Shown here: piece by piece, positions 17,858-45,990 of the stretch
Position numbering within the stretch: the stretch's first letter is position 1
How the letters are laid out: the number at the start of each line of letters is the position of its first letter
Source: Acorus gramineus
Lineage: Eukaryota; Streptophyta; Magnoliopsida; Acorales; Acoraceae
Reading direction: 5' to 3'
DNA: 64,000 bases
NCBI GenBank assembly: GCA_030737835.1
Contig: CM060851.1
Span: 11,026,154 to 11,090,153 of the forward strand
Notes under the pieces: generated by a model
The model's input: the letters and a program-made list of their open reading frames with translations, nothing else
Database searches by the model: none
Told to the model about the DNA's origin: nothing
Program-made: the position numbers and the translations under genes

Positions 17858-18609
17858 CGAAAAGAGAAAGAGCGCACATAGAAGAAGGCATGCGTAGTGG
17901 GAGCAAGAGAAGTAGCGAGATTGCACGAAGAGCGCGAGAGCGGTCGATGCCGCAAGGAGATGCGCGGAGGTGTGCAAATCTGCAAAAAGAGAAAAAGCGC
18001 ACATAGAAGAAGACATGCGTAGAGGGAGCAAGAGAAGTAGCGAGATTGCACGAAGAGCGCGAGAGCGGTCGATGCCGCAAGGAGATGCGCGGAGGTGTGC
18101 AAATCTGCGAAAAGAGAAAGAGCGCACATAGAAGAAGACATGCGTAGAGGGAGCAAGAGAAGTAGCGAGATTGCACGAAGAGCGCGAGAGCGGTCGATGT
18201 CGCAAGGAGATGCGCGGAGGTGTGCAAATCTGTGAAAAAGAGAAAGAGCGCACATAGAAGAAGATATGCGTAGAGGGAGCAAGAGAAGTAGCGAGATTGC
18301 ACGAAGAGCGCGAGAGCGGTCGATGCCGCAAGGAGATGCGCGGAGGTGTGCAAATCTGCGAAAAGAGAAAGAGTGCACATAGAAGAAGACATGCGTAGAG
18401 GGAGCAAGAGAAGTAGCGAGATTGCACGAAGGGCGCGAGAGCGGTCGATGCCGCAAGTAGATGCGCGGAGGTGTGCAAATCTGCGAAAAAGAGAAAGAGC
18501 GCACATAGAAGAAGATATGCGTAGAGGGAGCAAGAGAAGTAGCGAGATTGCACGAAGGGCGCGAGAGCGGTCGATGCCGCAAGAAGATGCGCGGAGGTGT
18601 GCAAATCTG
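17858..18609 (-). repeat. Six tandem 125/126-bp repeats
   Basis: Marked by CGGTCGATGCCGCAAG starting at 17941, 18066, 18191, 18317, 18442 and 18568, giving spacings of 125 or 126 bp. Each unit runs from GAGAAAGAGCGCACATAGAA to GGTGTGCAAATCTGC. Units differ by a few bases. Because the period is not a multiple of three, an open frame changes frame at each unit, yet all three minus frames stay open through most of the array. Confidence 0.9.
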
Positions 18610-18759
18610 CAAGGAGGATCGTAGAGATCTCGTATGAAGAAAAGAATCACATAGTTGCATAGAGAACGAAAAATCGAGCAAAATGGACTCCTGGATCACC
18701 TTAATCGGACTTCCGGAGAGGAAGTTATGACCGTATGACCGATTTAGTGGTTTTGAAGT

Positions 18760-20212: not shown

Positions 20213-23200
20213 TCAAACAAATTTAAAACGCATAAGAAGCTTTACGGACTTGTATTTCTCGCCCTTGCGGTTGCAAAGTGGGACGGCTCGGACTCCGGTC
20301 TTCAATTCTGACACAGGCAAACACGTCTGGCCACCGAAGTTATCCTTCTCTGATTGATTATGCTCATGCACTTCAATTCTTAGCAAGGCCAATTCCGGGA
20401 CAGTCAGAGGAAAAGTGAACTCTTCATTCCATACTGGTGTCCAGTCATCCTCCATTATCTGTGTTTTCTTCATAATGGTATCAGCTGGCACTCCCGCTAT
20501 TCCAATCTGTAGGTAGACAATTCAGATTATGTTTGCATCTATAGAAACATTATAAGCGTCAAGACTCATTAAAGCAAAAGGTAATACAAATCATTCTGAT
20601 ATTTTGAACTACACAGCTAGGATTAAATAATTTTGGATACCAGAACAGTTGAAGGGGGGACAATGAAACAAAGCAGTGCATATATAAACTATATATAGAT
20701 GCCATTAACATCTTACTCTGGTATAAAAGTCAGGTGGGGAGTACATATCGAAATGTGTCTTATGGAAATCCAAATTCCATCCATCTCCCATATACACCTT
20801 CACCTGTATATAAACGTGATTGCTTAGATCGAAACAATTAAAATTTAAGAAAAAGAAAAGAAAGTCAAAATTGTCTTGGTGCATGCAAAACCTTTAATGT
20901 TTTCTTCACAGGCAACTTGGCCTTGGGATCAAAGATATGGCCATTTTCATCAGCTTTCAACAGAATGTCAGGTTTTTTCACATAACCACAACCTCCATTT
21001 GCTCTAAATTTTCCATGCATCAACCACAGTGACCTTCCATAACCCTACACAGTTATAATTTATATGTTAGTGGAAGCTAGAACTTCTGAGGAAAAGAAAA
21101 AAAAAAGCAACCATCCAGAGCGAGCAGTCCTACTCCTACATACAGTAAGGTGATGGGAGGGGAGGGACTGGATAGTGGATACTGTCCTAACCTTGGGCTT
21201 CTTTGTTGTGCATAAAGAGACCGTTCTGAGGACTCGAGTCCATGACTTTGTTCTGAAGATGATTTCTATATAGCATGATTCCATGCTCTATAATTATTTC
21301 ACATCAAAAGATAGCAACAATTCAATTCTTTTATGGATATATTATTTTCGATATAATAAGCATCTCTCTTTAGGGTACAGTGAATATGACTATAGACAAA
21401 AATACCTGAGCTCTGTTTCAGTGGGCACAGTCCCATGGACAGTCCATAAACCTCAGTTGGTAATTTTTCACATTTTCCATCCAACATGTCTATATAATTC
21501 CTCATGATGGTATATACATTTTTCATAAAAATATATACCTCATTAGATGAGATTAATATTCTTAAAATATCAAAATGTGCATGTTCTGCGCGGGATTGTC
21601 CCCAACATTATCCAAAATAATTCAGATAAAGTAATCAAAAGTAATCAATGCTTTAAAACTCCAATTTGACCATTCACAATATCACATAAAGCATACATCC
21701 GATGCTCTACAGAGCTTAGCAATATTCAACATAAAGCATTCAGGCTTCAAATGAGGAAAAAACAATTCAAACCCCAAAAGCAAGTTATGCCATTTGGCAT
21801 TAGTACTTTTGCAAGACATATAACAATCAACTGAAGTCATCAGGAATGCAATAATGTTTTAAATCCTACTTATATGAGAACTCAGAACCACTTATAATAG
21901 TCGGACAGATAATATAAGAAAGTGAGACAAAATGAACCAATTAAAATCAATATGCTATTTTTCAAGAAAATAATGATTATTTTGGTCTTGGTTATTGAAG
22001 TAATATGATTAAATTGCAAGTAGAATAAAATCAACTCTCGGTGATGACAATGAAATCCAAAGAACTGTAATAACATTATTTGATCCCACATATTGTTCCT
22101 GGCATGATGTCAAATCTCTGAAACAATGACGTGGTTACATGAGAAGTAAAAGAATCATTAGAAATAAAATGCCAAGAAAATTCATGACGCACTTGGAAAA
22201 TTAAAAAGAAAAAATATTGAAGAAATGAGAATAATGCTACAAAAACACCATCAAGAAGCCCAGAGTAGAACATATAGGAAAAGGAAAGAGATATCAGGAT
22301 ATGTCATATATAAAGTAAAATATAGTCTACAAATAACAAGATCCAAAGGAAGTATCATCCATTTGCTTATAAAAAAACAGAACAATAATCCAAATTTAGG
22401 ACTACTGATGAAAATTGCTACTCCTAACTCTCCCAAAAACTGCATGGGGTGTCACAAAGTTAACCAATCTAGTTCATGTTCCCTTTTTCATCCTTATAGT
22501 GTTAACCTCATATATTGTAGCATACAGATCCGTTGCAACATATTCATAATATAGATGATAACATAGTCATTTCAAAAGAAATAAATGGAATAATATTGTA
22601 TTGCGTAATGGAGATCAAAAAGTCCCTTATATAGTTACAAGATATACAAATCCTAGAAATAGAAAATGACCAAAATACCCATGTCAAAAATTCGAGTGGG
22701 GGCCTCTAGCCCGGGGGGGCCTGCGGCCCATGGGGGGCGTTGCCCCCTAATCCCCGGGCCTCCGGGAATAGGCCCAACAACAGGCCTATACAATGACTCC
22801 AATACTCCCCCTCAAAGTTGGAGCGAAGATATCAATCACTTGGTCAAGCTAGAACGAAGAACAGAGGGACCAACGTACTTGGTGAACATATCAGCAAGCT
22901 GCTCATTGGAAGAGACAAAAGCTGTGTCAATGGCGCCTGACTGTACTCTCTCGAAGAAAGGGAACATCAACCTCAATGTGTTTGGTCCGCTCATGAAGAA
23001 CTGAGTCCGAGGTAAGCATAATGGCAAATCGGTTATCACAAAAAAAAAGTAGATGAACCAGCTACAGGGAATCCCAACTCTATTAAAAGAGAGCGCAGGC
23101 AAATGATGTCACATGTGCCTTGAGCCATGGCACGATATTCTGCCTCAGCAGAAGAACGAGAGACAACACTCCGTTTCTTACTTTTCCAGGAAATAAGGTT

Positions 23201-26200
23201 GCCCCCATGGAAAGTACAGAAACCAGAGGTGGATCAACGATCAGAGAGTGAACCAACATAATCTGCATCAGTGTAGCAAGATATGATAGGCTGAGCACTA
23301 GTAGCATAGAATAAGCCAAGACCAGGACATGACTTCAAGTATCTAAGAATCCTGTAAACAGCATCTAGGTGAGAAGTTTGTAGGACATGCATGAATTGAC
23401 TCACCACGCTTACAGCAAAAGTCAAATCAGGTCTAATATTCATGAAGTAGATCAAACGACCCACTAGACGCTGAAACAAAGAAGGATCTGGTAGAAGGTC
23501 GCCTGATTCAACATGAAGGCGATGGTTCTGATCCATTAAAAGAAGTGGCAGGGTGACATCCAAGCATACCGGTATCCTCAAGAAGGTCAAGAGTGTATTT
23601 TTACTGGGAGAGAGAAATACCATGGCGTGGGCGAGACATCTCAATCCCCAAAAAATACTGAAGAGAACCTAAATCCTTCACATCAAACGCACGTCTAAGC
23701 TCAGCCTTCACTCTGACAATGTAATCAGCATCATCTCCTGTGATAATGATATCATCCACGTAAACTAGAACAATGGTGCATCGTCCATTACTTCAACGAA
23801 TGAAGCAAGTATGATCAGCATGACAACGAGTGAATCCAAGAGAGAGAATGATTACACTGAATCTCTAAAACCATGCTCTCAGTGACTGCTTCAGTTCATA
23901 TACAGATTTGAGAAGAAGACACACCTTCCTGAACTACTCCCCCTGAAGACGAAAACCAGACGGATGATTCATATAAATTTTCTCAGTCAAGTCGCCATGA
24001 AGAAAAGCATTTTTCACATCCATCTAATGAAGAGACCAGCTGTGGCAAGCAGTAAAAGAGACAAGAAGCCGAACAATAGTCAGCTTGGCAACGGGACCAA
24101 ATGTAGCATGAAAATCCTTCCCTGGAGTAAAGCCTTTTGCAACAAGGTGTGCCTTATATCGCTCAACAGCCCCATCAATCTTGTATTTTACAGTGAAAAC
24201 CCATCGACAGCCAACGGTCCTCTCCCTTGGTGGAAGATCAACTAACTCCCACGTATGATTTTTCTGCAAGGCATCCATCTCAACGGTCATAGCGGCGGTC
24301 CATAGAGAATCCTGTAATACCTCAATAACAGTACGAGGAATATGGATAGACAATGTAGCAACCAGGTAAGCTCTGTAGGAATTGAAAAGTCCCTGATAAG
24401 AAACAAATTGGGCAAGAGGATGAGCAGTGACACAACTCCGATGACCTTTGCGAAGAGCAATAGGCACATCAGAGTCAAATGGAGACAAATCAGGAACAAA
24501 ATGTGGAGTGATCAAGGAAGAAGGTGTACCTCAGTTCGAGGAGGATGTCGACAAGTGAGCAGGAGAGAGAGGTGGCCGATGTCTACGTGTATACAATAAA
24601 AGGAGACTGTGATGGTGACGATGGTAGTGGTGACGACTATGGTAGTGGCGACTGTGGCTGTGGCAAAGGCAATGACGGAAAAAATGAAGTCAGTCAAACT
24701 GGTGAAGATGAATGTTGGAGAACCGTGTCAGAAAAATATGGCACATCTTCAAAAAATGTAACATCAAGGGAATGAAACAATCGCCGAGAAATAGGATCAT
24801 AGCATCTATATCCTTTGGACATGGCCAAGGAAAACACAACGGATAGACTTATCATCAAGCTTGGTGCGTGAGGGCCCCCTATCCTGAACAAAACAAGTAC
24901 ACCCAAATACTCGAGGAGTGAGGAAAAGAGTACGATCAAGATACAAAACATGGAAAGGAACTTGACCTCCTAAAATATGATTGGGAGTCCGATTAATCAA
25001 AAAGGCAGCAGTGAGGACTGTCATACTCTAATAGGACTTTGGAACATTCATTCCTCCCTCGAAGGAGACAACGAACCATATTCATGAGATGACGATTCTT
25101 GCGTTCCGCCACCCCATTCTGCTCAGGTGTATATGGACAAGTCAACTGTTGAAGGATTCCCAACTAATTCAGATGAGACCGAAAAGAATCCAAAACATAC
25201 TCCCCTCATTATCAGACCTGATACTCTTGACAGTAATGTTAAACTATGTTTTAATCATGGACAAAAAATTAACACACTAAGAGGATACATCAGACCAAGA
25301 TTTAAGAAGATAAACCCAAGTATATCTAGAAAAATCATCAATGAATGTCAAGTAATTTCTATGACCACCAAAAGCAGTAACAGGAGAGGGACCCCACACA
25401 TCAGAATGAATCAAATCAAATAACCCAGAAGCTTTATTCATGCGAGAAATATTAGTACGTGTATGTTTAGAAAGCTCACACACAGCACATTGAAATTTAT
25501 GAGTCTTACATGAAGAGCGAAAAGTAGGAAATAAAGAACATTGCTGGAAATTGACATGTCCTAAATGAGCATGCCATAAATCTAGAGATTGTAGAGAAAA
25601 ATTATGCGAATGATCGATGGGCAAAATGGAAGCATGGGCCGTGATGGGTGATTCTCCGAAGACGTAAAGGCCATCTCTCTCATACCCCTTGCCAAAAATC
25701 CTCCGTGTACTCAGGTCCTAAAAAAACATAATGATCAAGGTAAAAAGTAAAAAGTCACAGAACAGTTCAAAACCTTAGTCAATTGGCTAACAGAAAGAAG
25801 ATTAAGAGCAAGATTGGGAACATATAACACAGAGTGTAATGATAAAGAGGAAGATAAAGGAACGGTACCCTTACTGATGACAGGTGTAAGTGAGCCATCA
25901 GCAAGGCGTACCTCTCTGTGCATAGAAGGTGATGTCAAGAGAGCAAACAATCGAGACACACTAGACATGTTCAGTAGCGCCTAAATCAATGACCCAAGAA
26001 GGAGATCATGATTGATTAACATGGTAGGCGGAGGGGATACCTGAGGTAGAGGAAGAAGCAGCAGAGGATGTTGGACCAGCATGACAGACATGAGAGGCAA
26101 GGCTCTCCCGAACCATGGCATTAATATGGTTCTGAATAGTACGCATATCAAAGGACCCAGATGGAGCAGTGGGGGCATCACCCGAAACCAAGGCATCAGC

Positions 26201-29200
26201 AACAGCAGCGCGAAGGGCAGACGAAGGAGCTCCAACATTACGAGATCGCATCGATTGTGGGTACAGAAGAAAACATCTGACTTTTTCATGCCCTGTTTTT
26301 TCACAGTGGCCACAAGTCACAATATTGTTGCGTCCACGACCTCAACCGCGACCACTATCCCCGTGGCCACGAGAGTCATATCCAGAGGTGGCCGCCAATG
26401 CCATCTGATCGCCGAGGGTTCCAGTGGTCGCTGAGGAAGAGATCTGACGGCAATGCTCATCACCTTCAATAATAACAAATGCATCAAATAGAGAAGGAAG
26501 TGGTGTGGTATTCAAGATCTGAACACGAAGAGATTCGAACTCCGGTCAAAGGCCCATAAGAAACGCATATGCCTGTTGGCGTTGAAGTCGGCCAACCACA
26601 ATCGTGGCAGCCTCCTTAGACAACTGTAAGAGAGGCTCATAATGGACAAGTTCCTCCCAATGAGCCTAAAGAAATCCAAAATAATCGGTAACAGATTGGA
26701 TACCTTGGGTGGCCTGAGCAATATCCTTGTACAACTCATAGATCCGTGAGTCATTCCTGGCATGACCATAGGTCTTCTTCAACGCAGCCCATAGAGAGTC
26801 GACCGTATCATGATACATGAACATATTATAGATCTGGGTCTCCATGGAGTTGTAGAGCCAACCAAGAACCGTACAGTTGTTGATCTTCCACTGATTGAAG
26901 GTCGCATCAGTTTCTGCCAGCCTTTTAATGGTGCCAAGAAGAAGGCCTGACATGCCTCGACTACCCAAATATAATCGAACAAAACGCGACCGGGACGAAT
27001 AATTTCATCCATCAAGAAGCACATTGGTAATCCGTTGAGCATGAGAGATATGCCCTAACGGAATGGTGGTGTCCTTGCTCTCCCCACCCGACAATGGCGT
27101 GGGGTCCTTCAGCGTTGGATCCATTGCAAACCTCAAATCTCGACCCGAGAGGGAAAGATAATAGTGATCACCACGACCCGTGATGAGAAAAAAAATCGTG
27201 AAACCCTAGGATTTCTTTGCGGCTCTGATACCAAAAAGAAATAAATTGAATAATATTGTATTGAGTAATGGAGACCGAAAGGCCCCTTATATAGTTACAA
27301 GATGTACAAACCCTAGAAACAGAAAATGATCAAAATACCCATACCAAAAATTCGAGAGAAGGACCTCCGGCCCGGGGGGGGGACCTGCGGCCCATGGGGG
27401 GCAACGCCCCCCAACCCCCGGGCCTCCAAGAATAGGCCCAACAACAGGCCTATACAATGACTCCAATAATTTCAAACAACCAGCTTCCAGAAACCACCAT
27501 AACCTTTGGAGTCCAATAACATTGAGGCACCCTAACTACACCTCACACTTTTAGTTGGGCATTCACAAGGGTAAGAGAATAGGTGTACCAATAATAATTT
27601 CCACACAAGGATGGAATAGGAAAAATTTTAGTAGAAAAAAGGCCTTTCTTAAACCAATCATCTGATCAATGGACATTGGAATAAACTTTGTTTACTTTTC
27701 CAGAAAGTCAGTGATCTTTAATAGCATATAATATATATAAATAACAAATGAGTGGCTTTTAATGAAGCAGTATACATAATTAACAATGCAGTCCACTAGT
27801 CAATTGACTGATCACAATAACAGGTATAATATAAAGAAAAGCTATATATATTGAATGATACCTGCATATTAAAAGCAACCATCTGAGCCCCATACATCCA
27901 TCCAATTAATGGATTGTAATTCGAGGAATTAAAACGGGTGCCTTTTGGATACACTCTTAACATATTCTTTTGGGTGAACCTAGAATCGAGTGCTTCATTA
28001 GTCCATGAATTTGGAAAAAATTATTTATTTCATCTCCTAAAAATGTGTAATGCACAAGGACCATGAAGAATGTATATAAATGCAAAGAATCTTTCAAAAT
28101 AATGATACAATTACCTTACAAGTTGTGTTGAATAAGAATGTGAAGCTTTTGCAAGCTCTTGTTCACTCAAACTCAGACGCTTAACTCTATTGGGATCCAC
28201 CTTTAGAGCCTCTCGCAATCCAAGCTTTGGTTTAGTAGCGTAAATGGTGATAAGCCGCTTATACTCAGGTGCAATACTCTGGTTTATTGTATGATCACCA
28301 TCATCAAGATCTTCCTCATCGTGGTTATGTTCACTCCCATTACGGTCACTCTGGACAGAATTAAATATCACGCATGTTATCATATAGGTACATATTAATA
28401 ATGCATACAGTAATTTAACAACACAATAATTTTAAAACTTTCCTTATCTTCATCATCCAGAAATGATTTTAGGCCCAGAAGTTCCTTTCCCCAAGCATCC
28501 TCAACATCTTCCTTGACACTTATTGATCCACTGTCCTTGTCTTTAAAACTTTTGGATTCAAGATATTCTTTTGGTGGTTTGGTTGATAGAGTGATCCGCG
28601 TCTTCAATTCTTCCGGTGAAGGGAATTCTTCTCTGCCATCTGACTTCGGGTAGAACAACATGTCGCCAAATGTTTGTGTGACCATCTGAACCATTTTCTT
28701 GTTATCAAAAATGTGGTAAATCAACGAATAAAATAAACTGATATGCATAATGGAACATAAATGATTACCTCAGCCACATTAGCCTGAAGATCAGGAGTAA
28801 GGTGGTCTTCCAAAGTTATTATGACAGGGTACAGAGAAGCAGAAAAGGCATGTTCTTTTATTGATTTCAAGCATTTGATGAGCTCTACTGGAGTGGTCAG
28901 TGTCCTACAGTTACACAGAATCTCAAATCACTTCAAAATCTTGGAAAAAAAGAGGCAATTTCTGAGCTTCCTTTACATGGACCAGAAATCACCTGAAAAA
29001 ATACGAAAGACAAACAGGCTAATTTTGGATCTACTTGACAAGGTAAAACATATATGGGATCACAGAAGTGTTAATGACTTAGTCATTTCCGGTGAAGTGA
29101 AGAACTCAAGACAATTTCTTCACCAGCATTGGATAAATTACCAAAATGTGCAGTTATTTACCGAATAATATATTGGAATCACATATGGAAATTTACATAT

Positions 29201-31433
29201 TGCTCCTATCAAATGATACAGTCTCTTTCATTTTTCCGCTATCTATCTCTCCCTCCTTTAATCCTATCATAGTTCTAATTATCATCCTACGCATACTAAA
29301 TTTTCAAGAAAACAACTCAATAGCCATCACCTGTGTAAGTAATATTTTATGATTGTACAAGGCACATATCAGTCATATATGAAGCATGTACATAAAAAGG
29401 TGTTTCAGCCAATATCAACATGGCATAGTTTTTTTACCTTTTTCCCTTTAAAGTAGAACAGAATTTCTTTATTTTTTTTGAAAAAAAAATGATTAATGAA
29501 AATTAACAAGGTTTACTTAAGGTAAAGAAAAAATTATGGATGCAAAGTGTGCAGTTCTTGATTATTTTCCACAAATTCAAATATTACAGTTTGAACTCAG
29601 TAGTCTTTATAATGATGTGATGTTAAAACATCATCGAGAGATTATAGATTTGATTTAATATTGGTGATTTTGTATTGTCATAATTAATTTTTCTAATTTT
29701 GTATTCCTAAAATTCAAATTGGTGAAGGGATAAGATATTTAATAGTTAGTTCAATGTCAATGAGGTGTGCTTAATTATGTATGCATAAAACATATTAGTT
29801 TTTATGGGGATATGTTAACTCAAGAAAAATCATGAAAAATGAAGATCTATTTCTTCATCATTGAACACTATAATTTATGAAGATATGTTTCATATTTTCT
29901 AGTGAGATGTGCATGAAGGACTCAACACGGAACATCATATAGGCATCAGACTTGTATTTAAAAATAAAATGGAATTCACACTCATGTTTTCAAAGCAAAA
30001 CCAACATAAAACTTTAAAATGGAACAACTTATTCGAAAATCAAAGGGGTAATGGAAGATTTAGATCTTGGACTTAATGGTTGTGTATAGAGATTTAGCAA
30101 CAATAGCATCACATAGCAAGTATGCTTCACAAAACAACAGCCATCTCATTTCACATGTTGAAAACCTACCTTCCATGTAGAATATCCACATTATTTTTCC
30201 TAGCATTTGGCCACATGTCCAATTCTATTCCCCGTACACCTCTCTTAAGAGCGTTTGTGATCGGCACAACACTGCAATCGCTACTGAGCTGATTCCCAGT
30301 CAAGTAGGAATTATGGCCTGTATATATGAAGTAATGGGACAATGGAGCCGTCATATCGTGATGTACCTGGGTAAAGATATACATTAGATGCAAACTTTGA
30401 ACATTGCATGGTTTCACTGTAAATGTTTGGTTTGATAATGAGAAATAAGAGAAGTTCAGGAGGTAGATTGCCAGAGTAATACACGTTCAACTACTGAACA
30501 AGACTTACCATCAATTGATCCAAAGAGTGATAAAGACAATTAAATGGGTGACTCCCACCATCCATGATGACTTGAAAAGAAAAAAAAAAGACCAAAATTA
30601 GCCTTTGAATATGAATTTGGATAGGAATTTTCCTTCTAAACCAGAGTTAGCCTTTAGCTAAATATGTTGAGAGATACTAGGTCTAACTACTAAACTCATT
30701 TATATTTTTTTCTATACGTAGTGTTACTTTATAATATCCAATAAATAGGATTCTTTGTAGCTCTTTCATGAACAACATCATAAAGAAACCATCTCCGCTA
30801 CACTTAGCATGGTCTGTGTTGGAGAAGTTTTTCTCCAAGTCCACGAGCCGAACAAGGAATGGTGGTTCTCTTTAATAACACAATGAATCATTCTAAATAA
30901 AAAATAAAAATAAAATAAGGTTTCAAAATGGAAGACCCCTCAAATTCAAAATTCAAAAGTTTCACCTTGCCCACTTAAACCAACTCCATCTAACAAAATA
31001 CCAAAAACACAAAACCTTCCATTCCAGGCAACATAACCATTTCATTCTAAAACACCAAAACAGACAAAAATCAAACAATGCCTCAAAAATTTAAAAAAAA
31101 ATGAATTACCCCAACTGAAGGCGAGAGCGGCGGATTGGACTCCCCGAAAAGGTACCGAAAGAACGAATCGAGCCCGAGAGACCCCTCGCCCTTCTTCGGG
31201 AACCAGATGAGATATTTAGAATCCCTCAAAACGGAATCGATGATCGCCTGCGCTTCCTCCCTAGTCACCCCCTCCTCACCCTGAACCTCAACAAGGAACC
31301 TCTGCAGCTGCTCCACCCCCATCGCCCCATTCTCCGAGTACCTCTCGAACAGCTCCCTCAGCTCCATCGGGGCCTCCGCCGTGGCTTGCCGGAACCTCCT
31401 CTTGTAGAAAAAGCAAACCCTGTAGGTGGACAT
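20213..31433 (-). CDS. PLC: Phosphoinositide-specific phospholipase C (plant PI-PLC), nine exons
   Basis: Cleaves phosphatidylinositol phosphates to diacylglycerol and inositol phosphates at the plasma membrane in Ca2+-dependent signalling. Exons (minus): 1, 31433-31110; 2, 30366-30170; 3, 28904-28769; 4, 28685 to about 28425; 5, 28350-28115; 6, 27979-27862; 7, 21044-20892; 8, 20803-20717; 9, 20506-20213 (TGA 20215-20213). Phases join for all but exon 4, whose donor is uncertain: the nearest GT, at 28438, is out of frame, and a weak GT at 28424 keeps the frame. About 600 residues, usual for the family. Domains: EF-hand-like region (exon 1); X with [30 protein letters not shown] and LEDH; an acidic linker (exons 4-5); Y with APEYKRL and [11 protein letters not shown]2 from KVYMGDGW to LLMRFKFV. 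Intron 6 (6.8 kb) holds a copia element. No stop or frameshift seen, so it is probably functional. Confidence 0.92.
22574..27468 (-). mobile_element. Ty1/copia retrotransposon in PLC intron 6
   Basis: LTRs at 22574-22804 and 27234-27468 (231 and 235 bp) are flanked by the TSD ATTTC at 22569-22573 and 27469-27473. In element orientation the LTR reads TATTGGAGTC...ATTTATTTCTTTT, so it lacks the usual TG...CA ends. The primer-binding site TGGTATCAGAGCC abuts the 5' LTR (plus 27221-27233) and the polypurine tract TTTGAGGGGGAG abuts the 3' LTR (22805-22818). Internal order is gag-PR-IN-RT-RH, the copia order. LTRs have diverged at about a tenth of positions by eye, and the coding part is broken, so it is an old inactive copy. 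It lies in the same orientation as PLC. Confidence 0.92.
22836..27124 (-). pseudogene. copia gag-pol polyprotein relic
   Basis: ATG at 27124 ([15 protein letters not shown]). Gag: [13 protein letters not shown] and a zinc knuckle [14 protein letters not shown] near 26320-26270. Protease: [11 protein letters not shown] near 25990, with Leu in place of the usual Ser/Thr of D(S/T)GA. Integrase: HHCC finger (WHAHLGH...CAVC, about 25590-25470), then LIHSDVWGP and [10 protein letters not shown]; later [10 protein letters not shown] and [35 protein letters not shown], and [14 protein letters not shown] near 23770-23730. RNase [11 protein letters not shown] near 23260, and LADMFTK near 22880. At least eight stops or frameshifts break it (near 27003, 26667, 26548, 26340, 25980, 24025 and others). 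Confidence 0.88.
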
Positions 31434-34327
31434 CTCTTCTTCTTCTTCTTCTTCTTCTTCTTCTTGTTTGGGTCTTGTTTGTTTGTTGAGTGTGAGCGGA
31501 GCAGAAGAGGGAAATGGAAAGGGGAGGGAGTGGAGGATCGGATTCGATTGGGGAACACAACTCTTTTCCGCGTTGTAGGAGATTCAGTGGGGATCCCATT
31601 CTTTGAAAACTTGAGATAGATTCGAGATAGATTGTCCAAAAGTGAGCGCGACCCGAGTGTTCTTATTTTTTCTATAAATTGAGGATTTGTTTGCGCGTCG
31701 TTGTTGTTGGATTTTTATTTATTTTTTTGTTTCAGCATTGTTGGTTGTTTTTGAGCCTCGTACCATCCAACACCCCGTGATGAGGTGTATCTTGTGGACT
31801 CTCCACAGTCGATGCAGTGTTATTATTCAAGACCACATATCAAACGAGGGCTAACAGTATTATTTCACCGTGAGTTTATATAGATTTTATGTTTGACTGA
31901 GTTAAAAATTTCAAACTCAATAAAAATTTACGGTTAAAAATTTAATAAAATAATAATTTTTAAAAACTGAGTTTAAAATATAAAATGTTAAAAATTTCAG
32001 CGTTTTAACTTCACATCCAAGTGCAACCAAAGTTATTTATTAGGTTTACTTCTGATAACAATTGAGGTTAAAAGGTGATTTGTTTATGCTAATCTTCTAC
32101 AATATAATTAATTTTCAATTAAATTATGTGATCTAAATCAATTTTGCATTCTCACGTGAACGGTAACGTCGAGTGGTCATGTCATAACTTTTTCATTATA
32201 TTATGAATTGTGTTTTAAAAAAGTTGACTAGCACCTCTCTCGTAAAGAATGACTAAAAATCAAATTCTAAGCATTGATCTTAAAAAAAAAAAAAAAAATT
32301 ATTATATAGGTTTAGTGGATTTATATTTTTACTTCTAGATACAACTTACAAGGATCTGTGGCTTATGATTTGCCGGAACCTCCTCTTGTAGAAAAAGCAA
32401 ACCCTGTAGGTGGACATCTCTTCTTCTTCTTCTTCTTCTTCTTCTTCTTGTTTGGGTCTTGTTTGTTTGTTGAGTGTGAGCGGAGCAGAAGAGGGAAATG
32501 GAAAGGGGAGGGAGTGGAGGATCGGATTCGATTGGGGAACACAACTCTTTTCCGCGTTGTAGGAGATTCAGTGGGGATCCCATTCTTTGAAAACTTGAGA
32601 TAGATTCGAGATAGATTGTCCAAAAGTGAGCGCGACCCGAGTGTTCTTATTTTTTCTATAAATTGAGGATTTGTTTGCGCGTCGTTGTTGTTGGATTTTT
32701 ATTTATTTTTTTGTTTCAGCATTGTTGGTTGTTTTTGAGCCTCGTACCATCTAAGTATCTAACACCCCGTGATGAGGTGTATCTTGTGGACTCTCCACAG
32801 TCGATGCAGTGTCTTTATTCAAGACCACAGATCAAACGACGGCTAACAGTGTTATTTCACCGTGAGTTTATATAGATTTTATGTTTGACTAAGTTAAAAA
32901 TTTTCAAACTCAATAAAAATTTATAGTTAAAAATTTAATAAAATAATAATTTTTAAAAACTGAGTTTAAAACACAAGATGTTAAAAATTTCAGCGTTTTA
33001 ACTTCACATCCAAGTGCAACCAAAGTTATTTATTAGGTTTACTTCTGATAACAATTGAGGTTAAAAGGTGATTTGTTTATGCTAATCTTCTACAATATAA
33101 TTAATTTTCAATTAAATTATGTGATCTAAATCAATTTTGCATTCTCACGTGAACGGTAACGTCGAGTGGTCATGTCATAACTTTTTCATTATATTATGAA
33201 TTGTGTTTTAAAAAAGTTGACTAGCACCTCTCTTATAAAGAATGACTAAAAATCAAATTCTAAGCATTGATCTTAAAAAAAAAAAAAAAATTATTATATA
33301 GGTTTAGTGGATTTATATTTTTACTTCTAGGTACAACTTACAAGGATCTGTGGCTTATGATTTGCCGGAACCTCCTCTTGTAGAAAAAGCAAACCCTGTA
33401 GGTGGACATCTCTTCTTCTTCTTCTTCTTGTTTGGGTCTTGTTTGTTTGTTGAGTGTGAGCGGAGCAGAAGAGGGAAATGGAAAGGGGAGGGAGTGGAGG
33501 ATCGGATTCGATTGGGGAACACAACTCTTTTCCGCGTTGTAGGAGATTCAGTGGGGATCCCATTCTTTGAAAACTTGAGATAGATTGTCCAAAAGTGAGC
33601 GCGACCCGAGTGTTCTTATTTTTTCTATAAATTGAGGATTTGTTTGCGCGTCGTTGTTGTTGGATTTTTATTTATTTTTTGTTTTCAGCATTGTTGGTTG
33701 TTTTTGAGCCTCGTACCATCCAACACCCCGTGATGAGGTGTATCTTGTGGACTCTCCACAGTCGATGCAGTGTCTTTATTCAAGACCACGGATCAAACGA
33801 GGGATAAAAGTACTATTTGGACGTGAGTTTTAGATAGATTCTATGTTTAACTGAGTTAAAAATTCTCAAACTCAATAAAAATCTATGATTAAAAATCTAA
33901 TAAGACTACGATTTTTAAGAACTGAATTTGAAATACAAGATTTTAAAAGTTTTAGCATTTCAACTTCACATCCAAGTGCATTCGAAGTTATTTATTAGGT
34001 TTATTTTCTATAACAGTTGAGGTTAAAAAGTGATTTGTTTATGCTAATCTTTTATAATATATAATTAATTTTCAATTAAATTATGTGATCTAAATCAATT
34101 TTGCATTCTCACGTGATCGGTAACGTCGGGTGGTAATGTCATAACTTTTTCATTATATTGTGAATTGTGTTTAAAAAAAGTTGACTAGCACCCCTCTCAG
34201 TAAAGAATAACTAAAAATCAAATTCTGAGCATCAATCTTTAAAAGAAAAAAAATTATTATATAGGTTTAGTGGATTTATATTTTTACTTCTAGATACAAC
34301 TTACAAGGATCTGTGGCTTATGATTTG
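31389..34327 (-). repeat. Three tandem copies of the PLC 5' region (963-992 bp each)
   Basis: Units: 31389-32372, 32373-33364 and 33365-34327. Each begins inside PLC codons 1-16 (CCGGAACCTCCTCTTG), contains ATG, 5' UTR with a TTC/GAA run, and upstream DNA ending GTGGCTTATGATTTG. Only the first unit joins the rest of exon 1. The outer two have ATGs at 32417 and 33409, opening 23-codon frames that share the first 16 PLC residues, then run into promoter DNA and stop. The breakpoint shows a TTG microhomology shared by exon 1 (GTGGCTTGCCGG) and the distal end (GATTTGACAT). Units are about 95% identical by eye. The TTC run is shorter in unit 3, and unit 2 has a 10-base insert near 32751. Confidence 0.92.
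31434..31700 (-). promoter_or_regulatory. PLC proximal promoter and 5' UTR
   Basis: Directly upstream of the PLC ATG on the minus strand is a (GAA)n tract of about ten repeats (plus 31436-31465), then GC-balanced leader sequence to about 31650, and an AT-rich TTTATAG box near 31670-31677. GAA/CTT tracts are common in plant 5' UTRs. The transcription start cannot be placed from sequence. The same region recurs at 32417-32690 and 33410-33670. Confidence 0.5.
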
Positions 34328-37240: not shown

Positions 37241-38439
37241 AGTCTGCTATATTTTCGTTGGATGAGATTCCACAAGAAATTGAAATTGATGATTTCAAAG
37301 AGTAAACAACAGAAGTTATTTGTCCTACTATTGGAATGTCCTTTCATTCGGAAAACGAAGTTATGAAGTTTTACAAAAAATTTGCCCACAGTGAAGGTTT
37401 TGGCATTTCGAAAATACACGGGAGAAAGGATGAAAATGGGAAGCTGAGATTTTTTTTGTCTTGCATGTTGTCGAAATGGGAAGCACGTCCCAACGGGAAA
37501 GAATGTGTTTAATGGCAAGTCTTTGATCAAGTCTGGTTGTGGTGCAAGGATCAATGTTAGTATCAATGATGGAGAGCTTTTCATCATATCAAAGGTTGTA
37601 TTAGATCATAATCATCTGTTGAGCCCCCTTAAAGCTCGGCACTTTGCTTGCCATCAGAAAATTGCCCCCTTTTCAAAAAGAGTTTTGGATGTAAATGATC
37701 AAGCAGGAATTAGGGCTTCAAAAAGTTTTAATTCACTTGTTATCAAAGCTGGTGGATATGACTGCCTATCATACGAGGAGAGAGATGTAAGAAATTATTA
37801 GGCTACTTCTAGAATTGCAAGGCTTGGTGGGGGCGATGCTCAAGCGGTCTGTGATTATTTTGTTCGCATACAAAAGTGGAACCCGAATTTTTTTCATGTT
37901 GTTGATTTTGATGATAATTTCATGGTAAGAAATATTTTTTGGGCTTGAGGAGGATATTTTCCCCCTTCAGTTAGATTTTTAAGTTTATTGGGAAAAAGAA
38001 CTCAAGCAATATGAATTCTCGCAGCTATGCTTCGATTCGACCAACGACTGTATAGAAAATAACGCAAACAGAGCTCAATGACTGGGCTTGACTCAATGGA
38101 TAACTCTTTTGACCTTGCTTAACTGTGTATTTGACTGAGCCTTTAGATTGCTATCTCGCAACCTCTTTATAGGCTGCCTACGTACCCCTTGGGAATCAAG
38201 TCACATGTAGTTCCTTTAATGGCCTTGTAACTGCCTTGCCACTAAGTGTTTAGTGGGCCTTTTTTCAGAGAAACGTTCCTGATATTTTTGTTCCACGTCA
38301 ATCTTTGACTACCCACGTTCTGTTGGTAATGGGTCTTAAATGCTACCTTGGCAGTTACAGGCATTAGTGGTCTTCTGACCGTTTCTTCTTCTTGCTCGGG
38401 GTCTCTTGATGTGCTCGCTCGTACGCTTCACATCACAAC

Positions 38440-38739
38440 TTCGATGAGTAAGGTCGACCGACTAGACCTCATGTCTGGTCGTGCCTTAGACTACTGGCCT
38501 TCGAGGAGTAAGGTCGACCGACCAGACCTCATGTCTGGTCATGCCTTAGACTACTCGCCTTCGAGGAGTAAGGTCGACCGACCAGACCTCATGTCTGGTC
38601 GTGCCTTAGACTACTCGCCTTCGAGGAGTAAGGTTGACCAACCAGACCTCATGTCTAGTCGTGCCTTAGACTACTCGCCTTCGAGGAGTAAGGTCGACCA
38701 ACCAGACCTCATGTCTGGTCGTGCCTTAGACTACTCGCC
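38440..38739 (+). repeat. Five exact-length 60-bp tandem repeats in the solo LTR
   Basis: Units start at 38440, 38500, 38560, 38620 and 38680 (TTCGAGGAGTAAGGTCGACC...). Each holds the hairpin GACCAGAC-CTCAT-GTCTGGTC: an 8-bp stem with a 5-base loop, perfect in most units. The GTCGAC palindrome is next to it. As 60 is a multiple of three, a 20-residue peptide repeat (KVDRPDLMSGRALDYSPSR) appears in one frame, but an LTR context makes coding unlikely. Confidence 0.9.
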
Positions 38740-41700
38740 TTCGGGTGCCCAACTGCCCAACTAGACACTGGATCTAGTCATGTCAGCACATCTGGGAGAG
38801 TCATCATGACCAAGGATTGGAACTCGGATTCACGGGTCCCATGGTAAGCCCACGTTCGTCCTGGTGTGACTGTCACGCCCCAGGGCCGGCCGACCCCAGG
38901 ACGCGGCAGGTGTATATATGATATCAGTAACAAGAGTTCAATAACATACTCACACAATAGCTAAAATGACAACACAGACAAAAGCAGGGCTGACATGATA
39001 TACACACCAAATGCGGAAGCTAAAAAGACTGAATCTGTAATCAAAACATACTACAGACTCGATACATAATCATATGTCCTGTGAGAGCCAATATAAACAA
39101 AGATATCCAAATACAACACAACCACGTGCCCAAGCACGGAAAATAATACATACAAGCACAAGGGATGCTGATAGCCTGTGATACTCGCGGGACGTGGCGC
39201 TACTCCGCTACTGATGAAGTCCCTCGGGGAGCTCCTCCTCCAGATCTGACTCAGATGACACTGGAGAAAAATATTATGCGAGGGGTGAGCCACACGCTCA
39301 GTGAACAGCACAACCCATGCATCACAGCTTATATTAACCACAACCAGATATTATTAATCCACAATCACATTACTCAAGCCACAAAATGGCAACAACTCCG
39401 CAATCCAGTGGGTCGCTCCTGCAAACCCACCACACCCTCACCCTCACCTCTCAATGGGTGACCAAGGATATTGGGACTAACTACACAAAACCAGCGGGTC
39501 GCTACCGCCAACCCGCTATACCCTCACCCTCAATGGGTGACCAAGGATATTGGGACTTACAATCCAGTGGGTCGCCACATCGCCGGCCCACCATACCCTC
39601 ACCCTCACCCTCAATAGGTGACCTAGGCTCTTGGGATTGACTAGGCTGTTGGTCGCCCTTGGTCCATCGATAGTCTCTCCCACTCCGTAGGTCGTTTGGC
39701 CACTCCCACATTCAGCACAGTCCTTCTACAAAATTAGGAGGCGCCTACTGATGGGAGCCCCTGCACGGGACGACCTTTCCAACATCGGGGTAGTCTCTAC
39801 ACGGATCCAACGAAGGGAACAGAACAGCCTATCCATCGCATATGATCCACTCGGATCCGCAGACAACACATCATAACAACTCTAATGTCCTGAATTCCTT
39901 TGAATTCCTCCAGGGCGCATAACCAAGATGCGGGGAACATGCATAATAGTTATAACAAGGTTGGACTATTAACGGGAAAAGAATCCTTGGGAGGGCAGCG
40001 TGAGGTCCCGATATAGGACATCCTGACAACCAAACAAGGAACACGAAGTACCCTAGCCCGGGTCTCACCGCTATCCTCGCGAGGCCCCTCCCCTATGATA
40101 TTCGCTAAGACAGGCTAATAATCACATGCTCGCATTTTATTTAAATAAATAAACTAAATGGGAACATGCATCGATCGGGGCTTTCCTAGCATGGTAACAT
40201 GATAACAGGGTGCATGGTTCTTATACGGGTCCTAAGGGTATAAGTCCCTAGCATACAAATCTAGGGTGGCATGCATACTACAGATTATCATGCTTTCATA
40301 GCTTTTCATATTAACAGGTTAATATTTACTATGGTGCCCCAGGGGAGGACGGTACACGCCCAAGTGCATGTAACGCCTCCCTACTTGGTTGGATCGTCCC
40401 ACTCACCGGAGATTAGGTCGACGCGCGACCGTCCGTCAAGATCTGCAAGACAGGGTAACCACTAGGTGAGTAAAATACATAAATACATCAAAAATACTCT
40501 AAAATACCCAACACTCGGACAACGTACATACGGCCCGTACGCACACGTATCAGAGCATCCCGACTCACTCCCGAACCCACCGGCAGCCACCCGCATGGCC
40601 ACCGCCCCCGGATGCGGCGCCGCGCCTCAGCCCGTGCACCCAGGCGCACCGCCGGGCCCCTGCCCGCACGCCTGGACCAGCAGCCGAGCCACCCGGTGCG
40701 CCGCGCGCCCACTGCGCCCCGCCGCAGCAGCCCGCGCGCACCCTGCAAGCCCCGCGCTGACCCGCGCGCCCAGCGCCTCGCCCCGCGCGCACCGCCAGCC
40801 TCTACCAGCGCGCACTCCGCGTGCACCACCAGCCTCTACCCGCGCGCACGCCTGCCTCTGCCCAGCGCCCCGCGCGCAGCGCTCAGCACCCGCGACCAGC
40901 TCCCAGCGCTCAGCGCCCAGCACCCGGGACCCTCACCCAGCGCCCACGCGCACGCCGGCGCAACACGCACCTAGCGCGCCTGGCAGCACGCGCCCAGCGC
41001 GCCTGCCAGCCTGCCCGCGCTGCCTGGCTACGCGCATCGCCGAGGGGCCCGAGCACCGCTCGCCTGTACGCCCGGGTACTGCTCACCTGAGGCCCGAGCA
41101 CCTCCTGCCCAGCACGCCTGTGCGCCCAGCCTGCCTGCCCGGCCTGCCAGCGCGCACAGCCCAGCCAGCCTGCTCCACACGCCTCCCCCTGCACCCCCCG
41201 AGCGCACGCCCGCGCAAACTGGTGCACCTGCTCCCAGCCTACCCGAGCTAGTCCTACCCAGCGCCCAGCACGCCTGCAGCACCACCTGAGCGCACGCCGC
41301 GCGCACGCCTGCGCGCACGCACTTGCGCGCCCGGCCACCTGGTGCCCCAGCCTGCTGCGCCCGCTGCCAACCCTCCCGGGACAGCCACCCAACCTGCCCG
41401 GACACCTCTACCACCCACCTCCGGCCACCAATGGCCTCCGACCACCACCCCACCGCCGCCAACGGCCACCCACAGCCGCCGACCACCACCCAACCTCAAA
41501 TCCAACATCCTAACATACATCTAAGCATGAAAAGAGAGGAAAAAGGGCTTACCAAGGGGAGGAAGGGAAGTCTGGTTGCTCTCCGCGCACCGAAACCTCT
41601 CCCAAAAGGCTTCCAACGCCCGGATCTTCCTTGGCCCTCGAATTGGCCCAAATCAGAGGAGAAAAGAGGGGGGATGGAGGGGCAAAACTCACCGGAATTT

Positions 41701-42179
41701 GAATTTGAAAGCACCGGGGTGTAGATCGGGACTCGATCTACACTTCCTATGCTTTAGGTTTTTGGGTTTGAGAGTTCTAAGGGGTTCAAATGGAAGAAAA
41801 GGAGAGAGGGGAGAGAGAGAAAGCTTTTTGGTAGGGATGATGAATAGTACCTTTCTAATTTTAGATCTCACTTATATAGAAAGTCACTTAAAATACCCGG
41901 ATACGCCCCGGAACTGCAAAATTTCAAAAACGTTACCGAAAATCGATGAAATTTTTGTGAGAGGCCTAAAATGGCACCAGGACACCAAATATGCAGTTAG
42001 ATTTCCAATTGGAGTCCTCTAACTCAGGACGATAGCTAACAGTCCAAAAATTAGCGGTTCCGATCGAAAACCGAAAAAATGAAAAACTGCCAGAACGCTC
42101 CAACGGTTACCAGCAGGTTAAAAGTGACACATATTTAACATTCTTCCCCCCTTAGGAAATTTTGTCCTCAAAATATGCA

Positions 42180-42860
42180 AAAACATCTAGGAGGGGAAAA
42201 GATGCGGATACGCGTCACACCTGGCATCCTTAAGCTCCCAAGTGTCCTCGACACCGGAACGGTGCTGCCATCGCACCTCGACCAACTGGACGGTCTTGGT
42301 GCAGAGCCTCCTCACGCGGCGGTCCATGATCACAATCGACTGCTCCACGAATGATTGTCCGGCTCAGAGACGAGCGGCTCGAACGGGACGACGTGAGCAG
42401 GATCGTGGACACACCCTTACCCAACTGCGAACCCACCACTCCAAGACGGAGAGGTAAGAATTGGCGCTGAGGTGAGCCTCCGATTAAACTCCAGGAAGCT
42501 CTCCTCGCAAGACGGGGACCACTCGAACCGGACATCCTTCCGAGTAAGGCGGTTAAGAGGAACAGCTATCTTCGAGAGTCCCTCGTCAAACCTCCTGCAA
42601 TAACCCGCCAAACTCGGGAAGCTCCGAATCCTTGCGGGGTTCGATGGCCTACGCCAATTCGACATAGCAAGCGTCTTACCCGGGTCCACAGATATACCTT
42701 CACCACAATCACATAGCCCAGAAAGGCCATAAGCTCCATCCAAACTCGCACTTGATCCATCACCAGCTGATGCTTCCAGGGTATCCCTTGACTGGGAAAA
42801 GAAACCTTGGGAGAGCAGCATGAGGTCCCGATATAGGATACCCTGACAACCAAACAAGGA
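42180..42860 (-). pseudogene. pol scraps of element B
   Basis: Minus strand. About 42720-42417: end of reverse transcriptase in one open frame, with SFPSLAGYCRRFDEGLSKIA, NRLTRKDVRFEWSPSCEESF and RRLTSAPILTSPS. About 42345-42185: integrase C-terminal segment (ATGGACCGCCGCGTGAGGAG block). Between them the frame is lost. 42760-42860 is an LTR-like module, not pol. This copy gives the clearest reading of the RT end in the family. Confidence 0.78.
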
Positions 42861-43057
42861 ACACGAAGTACCCTAGCCCGGGTCTCAACGCTGACCTCAC
42901 ACGGCCCCTTAAACCAGAAAAGGAACACTAGAAGAAGACATCACTCTTAAAGAACATTACCAATCTCACCGGATCATCTATATCTAGATAATCACCCACC
43001 GATAGCCTTCAACCTCCATCACAAGACTGGACCCAACATCCATGGGAATGGTCGAAC

Positions 43058-45786
43058 TTTCCAAGGATATTGGGACTAATTACACAAAACCAGCGGGTCG
43101 CTACCGCCACCCGCTACACCCTCACCCTCACCCTCACTGGGTGACCAAGGATATTGGGACTTACAATCCAGCGGGTCGCCACATCACCGGCCCACCATAC
43201 CCTCACCCTCACCCTCAATAGGTGACCTAGGCTCTTGGGACTGACTAGGCTGTTGGTCACCCTTGGTCCACCGATAGTCTCTCCCCACTCCGTAGGTCGT
43301 TTGGCCACTCCCACATTCAGCACAGTCCTTCTACCAAATCAGGAGGCGCCTACTGATGGGAGCCCCTGCACGGGACGACCTTTCCAACGCCGGGGTAGTC
43401 TCTACACGGATCCAACGAAGGGAACAGAACAGCCTATCCATCGCATATGATCCACTCGGATCCGCAGACAACACATCATAACAACTCTAATGTCCTGAAT
43501 TCCTCAGAATTCCTCCAGGGCGCATAACCAAGATGCGGGGAACATGCATAATAGTTATAACAAGGTTGGAATATTAACGGGGAAAGAATCCTTGGGAGGG
43601 CAGCGTGAGGTCCCGATATAGGACATCCTGACAACCAAACAAGGAACACGAAAGTACCCTAGCCCGGGTCTCACCGCTGTCCTCGCGAGGCCCCTCCCCT
43701 ATGATATTCGCTAAGACAGGCTAATAATCACATGCTCGCATTTTATTTAAATAAATAAACTAAATGGGAACATGCATCGGTCGGGGCTTTACTAGCATGG
43801 AAACATGATAACAGGGTGCATGGCTCTGATACGGGTCCTAAGGGTATAAGTCCCTAGCATACAAATCTAGGGTGGCATGCATACTACAGATTATCATGCT
43901 TTCATAGCTTTTCATATTAACAGGTTAATATTTACTATGGTGCCCCAGGGGAGGACGGTACACGCCCAAGTGCATGTAACGCCTCCCTACTGGGTTGGAT
44001 CGTCCCACTCACCGGAGATCGGGTCGACGCGCGACCGTCCGTCGAGATCTGCAAGACAGGGTAACAACTTGGTGAGTAAAATTCCATAAATACATCAAAA
44101 ATACTCTAAAATACCCAACAATTGGACAACGTACATACGGCCCGTACGCACACGTATCCGAGCATCCTGACTCACTCCCGAACCCACCGGCAACCACCCG
44201 CACGGCCACCCGCCCCCGGATGCGCCGCCGCGCCTCAGCCCGTGCACCCAGGCACACCGCTGGGCCCCTGCCCGCACGCCTGTACCTGTAGCCGAGCCAC
44301 CCAGTGCACCGCGCGCCCACTGCGCCCCGCCGCAGCAGCCCGCGCGCACCCCGCACGCCCCGCGCTGACCCGCGAGCACACCGCACGCCCCGCGCGCCCA
44401 CTGCCTCGCCCCGCGCGCACCCCGCGCGCACCGCCAGCCTCTACCCGTGCGCACCACCAGCCTCTACCCGCGCGCACGCCTGCCTCTGCCCAGCGCCCCG
44501 CGCGCAGCGCTCAGCACCCGCGACCAGCTCCCAGCGCTCATCGCCCAGCACCCGGGACCCTCACCCAGCGCACACGCGCACGCCCGCACAACACGCACCC
44601 AGCGCGCCTGGCAGCACGCGCCCAGCGCTTGCCAGCCTGCCCGCGCTGCTGCCCGCGCTGCCTGCCTGCGCGCATCGCCGAGTGGCCCGATCACCGCTCG
44701 CCTGTACGCCCGGGTACTGCTCGCCTGAGGCCCGTGCACCTCCTGCCCAGCAAGCCTGTGCGCCCAGCCTGCCTGCCCGGCCTGCCAGCGCGCACAGCCC
44801 AGCCAGGCTGCTCCGCACGCCTCCCCCTGCACCCCCCGAGCGCACGCCCGCGCGCGCACCTGCGCGCACGCGCTCGCGCGCCCGGCAAACTGGTGCACCT
44901 GCTCCCAGCCTACCCGAGCTAGTCCTACCCAGCGCCCAGCACACCTGCAGCACCACCCGAGTGCACACCGCGCGCACGCCGGCCACCTGGTTCCCCAGTC
45001 GCTCCGCCCGCTACTAACCCTCCCGGGATTGCCACCCAACCTGCCCGGACACCTCTACCACCCACCTCCGGCCACCAATGGCCTCCGACCTCCACCCCAC
45101 CGCCGCCAACGGCCACCCACAGCCGCCGACCACCACCCAACCTCAAATCCAACATCCTAACATACATCTAAGCATGAAAAGATAGGAAAAAGGGCTTACC
45201 AAGGGGAGGAAGGGAAGTCTGGTTGCTCTCCGCGCATCGAAACCTCTCCCAGAAGGCTTCCAACGCCCGGATCTTCCTCGGCCCTCGAATTGGCCTAAAT
45301 CAAAGGAGAAGAGAGGGGGGATGGAGGGGCAAAACTCACCGGAATTCAAATTTGAAAGCACCGGGTGTAGATCGGGACCCGATCTACACTTCCTATGCTT
45401 TGGGTATTTGGGTTTGAGGGGTCTAAGGGGCTCAAATCAAAGAAAAGGAGAGAGGGGAGAGAGAGAAAGCATTTTGGTAGGGATGATGAATAGTACCTTC
45501 TAATTTTAGATTTCACTTATATAGCAAGTCACTTAAAATACCCGGATACGCCCCAAAACTGCAAAATTTTGGAAACGTTACCGGAATTCAACGAAATTTT
45601 CGTGAGAGGTCTAAAATGGCACCAGGACACCAAATATGGAGTTAGATTTCCAATCGGAGTCCTCTAACTCAGGACGATAGCTAACAGTCCAAAAATTAGC
45701 GGTTCCGATCGAAAACCGAAAAAATGAAAAACTGTCAGAACGCTCCAACGGTTACCAGCAGGTTAAAAAGTGACACATATTTAACA
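43058..45786 (-). repeat. 5' LTR of element B, inner end deleted
   Basis: Collinear with 39463-42140 at high identity, including the tandem GGGTGAGGGTGAGGG-type modules (complement, 43100-43230), the ATATGATCCACTCGGATCC block, the GC-rich segment (44210-45000) and the TTAAACAGTGTCAC-type outer end. The GC-rich segments of the two LTRs differ by several short insertions and deletions, while the flanking parts match closely. Confidence 0.82.
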
Positions 45787-45990
45787 GTGACGCATTACCC
45801 CTTGAGGTGACATGTGTCGCGGTGAGGATTTTTACCTCCACAGGGCTGATGCAATGTCAAGAGCTCTATATGAGTCTTTTTCAGATGTCATATCATTTGA
45901 CTCAACATATTTGACCAACAAGTATGATATGCCGTTTGCACCATTTGTCGGTGTAAACCATCATGGACAGTTAGTCATGTTTGGTTGTGG

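Follow-up and report, generated by a model that had tools for sequence, protein, structure and literature searches.

The window analyzed here, a 64,000-nucleotide stretch of Acorus gramineus DNA (contig CM060851.1, positions 11,026,154 to 11,090,153), carries on its minus strand a PI-PLC gene (hereafter PLC) with a complete coding sequence of 595 codons in nine exons (31433–20213). The exons were picked by eye from splice-like borders (31433–31110, 30366–30170, 28904–28769, 28685–28443, 28350–28115, 27979–27862, 21044–20892, 20803–20717, and 20506–20213) and then joined, which yielded a frame that stayed open to the TGA stop codon. The predicted product matched the Pfam families PI-PLC-X (4.5e-52), PI-PLC-Y (8e-29), and C2 (4.8e-13), as well as EF-hand_like (2.9e-4) with a score barely above the cut-off (21.7 versus 21), and its top PDB match was PLC zeta-1 (1.1e-62). 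A single open frame thus encodes X, Y, and C2 domains together with an EF-hand-like N terminus, which identifies the gene as a PI-PLC gene. The 6.8-kb intron between exons 6 and 7 (27979–27862 and 21044–20892) hosts a retrotransposon remnant (22574–27468), presumably copia-like judging from its ORFs; its two terminal repeats are only 88% identical over 235 bp, indicating that the remnant is old.

The 5′ end of this gene, up to and including codon 16, was present in three head-to-tail copies on the minus strand in front of the gene. The first-pass annotation had given the lengths of these units as 963–992 bp, and our alignment bore out three tandem units of 987, 995, and 966 bp: the proximal unit 1 (u1; 31386–32372), which is continuous with the remainder of exon 1; the middle unit 2 (u2; 32370–33364); and the distal unit 3 (u3; 33362–34327), which abuts upstream DNA that is single in the window. 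These lengths count a shared 3-bp TTG in both neighboring units, and the start-to-start spacings were 984 and 992. The left edge of the array lies within exon 1, at 31386 rather than at 31389 as first proposed, and the right edge lies at 34327/34328; a search of the window revealed no second copy of the first 1 kb upstream of the right edge. Each unit consists of the 16 codons, the leader, the core promoter, and roughly 0.65 kb of the DNA that lies upstream of it, and the start of exon 1, leader, GAA tract, and upstream DNA that had been described as common to the units were present in all three. The GAA tract is equally long in u1 (31435–31465) and u2 (32419–32449) and 12 bp shorter in u3. 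The first 48 bp were identical across u1, u2, and u3, in agreement with the 16 shared codons claimed earlier, and PLC-type ATGs occur at 31433, 32417, and 33409, respectively. The two outer ATGs, likewise reported beforehand, do open 23-codon ORFs (32346–32417 and 33338–33409, stop included, minus strand) that begin like PLC. Both internal junctions read ...TTATGATTTG/CCGGAACC... and place the TTG at 32370–32372 (u1/u2) and 33362–33364 (u2/u3); the parent ends, ...GGCTTGCCGG and ...GATTTGACATA, have exactly TTG in common, as expected from the microhomology noticed in the first-pass annotation. With at least two promoter copies lying head-to-tail immediately upstream of a single intact gene, the arrangement is a tandem promoter duplication.

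Gapped identity over aligned letters was 98.5% between u1 and u2 (971/986) and 93.8–93.9% between u3 and the other two units (902/961 with u1 and 902/962 with u2), corresponding to divergences of 1.5% and 6.1–6.2%. No substitution was found in columns 0–340 of the alignment (0/341 for u1–u2, 0/318 for u1–u3, and 0/318 for u2–u3), a stretch comprising the 16 codons, the leader, and a TATA-like sequence (31386–31726; counterparts 32370–32710 and 33362–33679; minus strand), where indels were the only differences among the units (in u3, the GAA tract is contracted by 12 bp and another 11 bp are deleted). Conversely, substitutions past column 340 numbered 15/646 for u1–u2, 59/644 for u1–u3, and 60/645 for u2–u3, and Fisher tests of the proximal against the distal counts, split at column 340, gave 4e-11 for u1–u3 (0/317 against 59/644) and 0.002 for u1–u2 (0/340 against 15/646). 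The longest substitution-free run between u1 and u3 spanned 319 columns and was matched in none of 10,000 site shuffles, which assume independence of sites. The run between u1 and u2 was reached in 97 of 10,000 shuffles and had a probability of 0.05 against the distal non-MITE rate; taken alone, the proximal identity of u1 and u2 is weak evidence. Roughly 80 columns at the opposite end of the units likewise lacked differences between u1 and u3, so that the identity is not confined to one tract, as would be expected if tracts of exchange crossed the junctions.

The most diverged part of the units is a dispersed MITE-like repeat (edges approximate, 31858–32028; counterparts ~32850–33021 and ~33811–33983; columns ~480–653), in which u1 and u3 differed at 29/171 sites (up to 17%) versus 22/341 beyond it. 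Searching the 398.6-Mb assembly (137 contigs) with the array stretch, with 40 of 695 candidates scored, recovered the array once among the matches listed, together with 49 matches elsewhere that were about 50–180 bp each, showed 73–88% identity, and lay within the dispersed repeat; a leader probe recovered the three copies at the window gene, as expected. An origin of the array from a second genomic locus was rejected, as none of these 49 listed matches extended past the dispersed repeat. We aligned the repeat with 10 other copies from seven loci. An internal stretch missing in all three units was present in eight of the 10 other copies, partial in one, and mostly absent from the remaining one. 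Since all three units carry the repeat with the same internal gap, its insertion predates the duplication. The ends of the repeat, judged by eye from the alignment, resemble imperfect inverted repeats. At three loci (L005, L007, and L008), copies form facing inverted pairs about 0.5–1.2 kb apart, so that the repeat, instead of being an independent MITE, may form the terminus of some larger element.

The other copies also allowed us to polarize columns in which u3 differs from the shared letter of u1 and u2, after nine differing columns of all kinds had been excluded as ambiguous. The most frequent letter was that of u3 at 11 columns, that of u1/u2 at nine, and neither at one, placing 11 inferred changes in the dispersed repeat on the u1/u2 side and nine on the u3 side. 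Most departures of u3 from the letter shared by u1 and u2 were transitions (37 of 52 columns). Faster distal decay through deamination of a methylated repeat was rejected as a full account of the proximal–distal contrast in view of the balance of polarized changes (11 versus nine) and a non-MITE distal divergence well above zero; faster change of the dispersed repeat may contribute part of it.

A genome search with the PLC protein identified four further exon 1 matches, at C8:7504018 (C8), C5:10861979 (C5a), C5:10868560 (C5b), and C5:10836285 (C5d). Using for each paralogue a probe of 298 bp of its own leader and first codons, we detected no second leader copy within 4.5 kb upstream of C8, 1.5 kb upstream of C5a, or 1.7 kb upstream of C5d; in the 7.6 kb upstream of C5b, no second copy of its own leader was found, and only the leader of the neighboring C5a matched (88%). 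C5a and C5b form a tandem pair of PLC genes, spaced by roughly 6.6 kb and located about 190 kb from the window PLC gene. Their leaders, taken for comparison as the 260 bp upstream of the ATG, are recognizably related to that of the window PLC gene, which matched C5a at 155 of 254 sites (99 differed) and C5b at 146 of 247. Between C5a and C5b, 19 of 244 sites differed in the leader and 14 of 324 in exon 1. These values indicate that PLC leaders are not frozen by selection.

Since the units are free of substitutions proximally while the leaders of the PLC paralogues diverge, the pattern points to homogenization of the proximal ~340 columns by gene conversion or repeated unequal exchange. The identical stretch coincides with the 16 codons, the leader, and the core promoter, and its 340 identical columns could alternatively have been kept by purifying selection, if every unit has a functional promoter and leader. 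We regard this explanation as quite improbable: all 48 copied codon bases are identical even though the outer copies would yield no PLC protein, indels are tolerated within the identical stretch, and the leaders have diverged both between C5a and C5b (19/244) and between the window PLC gene and C5a (99/254). Constraint alone is unlikely because the paralogue leaders diverge and the outer codons, which do not code for PLC, stay identical. The array might also be an artifact of assembly, with two alleles or collapsed reads placed in tandem. The divergence between u1 and u2 is just 1.5%, which falls within the heterozygosity of an outbred plant; however, the three units are distinct, bear private differences, and have an exact junction in common, and u3 is 6% away from both others. 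That the units differ to these extents argues against a simple assembly echo, and we consider an artifact very improbable and the reality of the array highly probable.

Together, these results make it likely that the locus records a real germ-line tandem triplication followed by later exchange and recent homogenization, with the proximal unit making the PLC mRNA. In this scheme, an old head-to-tail duplication through the TTG join would have copied about 0.96 kb of DNA, reaching from codon 16 to some 0.9 kb upstream; a later unequal exchange would have added a third copy, giving the pair u1/u2; and conversion or repeated exchange would then have wiped substitutions from the promoter–leader–exon part, as the pattern of differences suggests. 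With u1 and u2 closest to each other and u3 more distant from both, the most parsimonious order begins with the duplication, continues with divergence of the inner and outer copies, and ends with the inner one giving rise to the third copy. K2P distances in the non-MITE distal part (columns 653–1000) were 0.068–0.072 between u3 and the other units and 0.009 between u1 and u2. Applying published substitution rates (2.5e-9–7e-9 per site and year) very roughly dates the u3 split to about 5–14 million years ago and the u1–u2 split to 0.6–1.8 million years ago, ages only as reliable as those rates. The first-pass annotation had ascribed the array to microhomology-mediated duplication followed by unequal exchange. 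The exchange fits the identical junctions and the closeness of u1 to u2; the microhomology-mediated joining is weakly backed, because a chance match of 3 bp is not rare, and 3 bp of microhomology is too little to establish how the initial joining came about.

Tandem duplications (≥200 bp, ≥85% identity, and ≤4 kb spacing) were found in three of 20 control 10-kb stretches, whose positions were chosen and non-random, and one of these three (L039) was the 17.8-kb array that belongs to the window itself. Among the control stretches, three had been picked for PLC paralogues, and none of them contained a tandem duplication by these thresholds. The window itself contains several further tandem duplications. 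A tandem duplication is thus no rare occurrence here.

A TATA-like TTTATAG occurs at 31678 in u1, with counterparts at 32662 in u2 and 33631 in u3, and we infer that transcription starts about 30–40 bp downstream of these sites. If it starts near the TATA-like site, each leader would contain an AUG earlier than the PLC-type one, at 31599 (u1), 32583 (u2), and 33563 (u3). The frame of the proximal leader AUG (31288–31599) overlaps the PLC start. Of the two closest paralogue leaders, that of C5b has a counterpart of this AUG and that of C5a lacks one. In the outer units, the first AUG (32583 or 33563) opens a frame of 82 or 78 codons, and the PLC-like AUG, which sits in the same context as that of PLC, opens one of 23 codons; the stop of the 23-codon ORF precedes the AUG of PLC by 912 bases in unit 2 and by 1904 bases in unit 3, and AATAAA motifs sit between the units. 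The long leaders with upstream ORFs that the first-pass annotation foresaw for outer transcripts do follow from the sequence, as the predicted transcripts of units 2 and 3 contain 12 and 22 AUGs, respectively, ahead of the PLC start. The outer units keep core promoter sequence, and any transcript initiated there would cross these AUGs and the AATAAA motifs. Because of the upstream AUGs, including those of the 23-codon ORFs, and the AATAAA motifs, outer transcripts should give little PLC protein. The proximal unit would make the PLC mRNA and most likely makes the PLC protein. The first-pass annotation proposed that dosage or translation could change; overall, the array probably affects the amount of PLC little, or alters it modestly by offering extra binding sites. 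Splicing of an outer leader was examined by hand and rejected: using the GTAAGT at 32349 or 33341, in the last bases of the 23-codon ORFs, and joining to PLC exon 2 breaks the frame, and the GTAAGT that also occurs at 34304 in unit 3 lacks any preceding exon.

Other effects on expression are conceivable. The extra copies might supply additional activator sites and increase the transcription of PLC from its proximal start. The architecture is that of wheat TaALMT1, where duplicated and triplicated promoter repeats go with high expression, and every PLC unit contains a MITE-like element, as might matter by analogy with sorghum SbMATE, whose expression is associated with the repeat number of tourist-like promoter MITEs (PMC6480313). 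However, the PLC units include the start codon and 16 codons, which go unmentioned in the passages on TaALMT1 and SbMATE in that source (PMC6480313), and we consider raised expression rather unlikely. The array could also be repressive in a LUTI-like manner, with outer promoters making AUG-rich mRNAs that are not decoded and that dampen the proximal promoter. The 22 (unit 3) and 12 (unit 2) upstream AUGs, with the PLC-like starts among them, would suit such a role, and the 5′-extended NDC80 mRNA of yeast has nine uORFs (PMC5948300). The AATAAA motifs between the units speak against it, though they are common in A+T-rich DNA, and repression of this kind appears very improbable. It is scarcely probable that the duplication forms an off-switch, in which outer promoters responding to the same signals as PLC would produce undecodable transcripts and conversion would keep the three promoters and false starts identical, thereby buffering PLC output.

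Seen as sequence alone, the array is a tandem partial duplication, a kind already described. Promoter duplications at TERT are short and somatic. They resemble the PLC array in that core promoter sequence is duplicated, with wild-type sequence repeated in the TERT core promoter region of human tumors; there, the duplication is a matter of cancers and is tied to an ETS motif, whereas about 1 kb is repeated here in an assembled plant genome (PMC9481613). In ribosomal intergenic spacers, core promoters are repeated upstream of the transcription unit, as in the PLC array, but the locus itself is repeated (PMC1215480), whereas the PLC array occupies one locus in the assembly, in front of a protein-coding gene. 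A 5′-extended PLC transcript would, like the LUTI of NDC80, hold many uORFs before a full coding region; the yeast case is developmentally switched and was demonstrated with RNA and ribosome data, whereas that of PLC is a possibility read from the DNA (PMC5948300). The PLC array most closely recalls the plant examples: it resembles a tandem promoter repeat of the TaALMT1 kind, with repeats upstream of one gene, and, through the MITE-like element in each unit, one of the SbMATE kind (PMC6480313). It differs from TaALMT1, for which constitutively high expression is described, in being known as a sequence feature whose unit includes the leader, start codon, and 16 codons, and from SbMATE, whose MITE is tourist-like, in that the PLC element is only MITE-like and the repeat spans the gene's own start (PMC6480313). 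A literature search aimed at PLC promoters returned, in the collection searched and by those terms, no article title on such a duplication. If confirmed, the locus would be a natural three-promoter array whose repeat includes the translation start, permitting tests of raised expression, as with TaALMT1, versus lowering via undecoded transcripts, and of how conversion holds promoter copies alike.

Several other features were observed in the window. A tandem array with a 125-bp unit (17858–18612; six copies, 96% matches) lies past the 3′ end of PLC. Distal to the PLC array, large direct repeats (39462–42140 and 43061–45786) are 91.9% identical over 2754 bp at a spacing of about 3.6 kb, and the set, which spans 39462–47808, includes a third copy that begins near 46.1 kb and has diverged more. 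A 60-bp tandem repeat (38439–38743; 5.1 copies) has one frame open as a 20-residue repeat, which gave no Pfam match at E 0.001. Upstream of the PLC array, a FAR1 DNA-binding-domain fragment (37448–37798; E 1.3e-5), scoring 26.3 bits and thus just below the Pfam cut-off of 28.1, may belong to a FAR1-like gene or represent the relic of a transposon.
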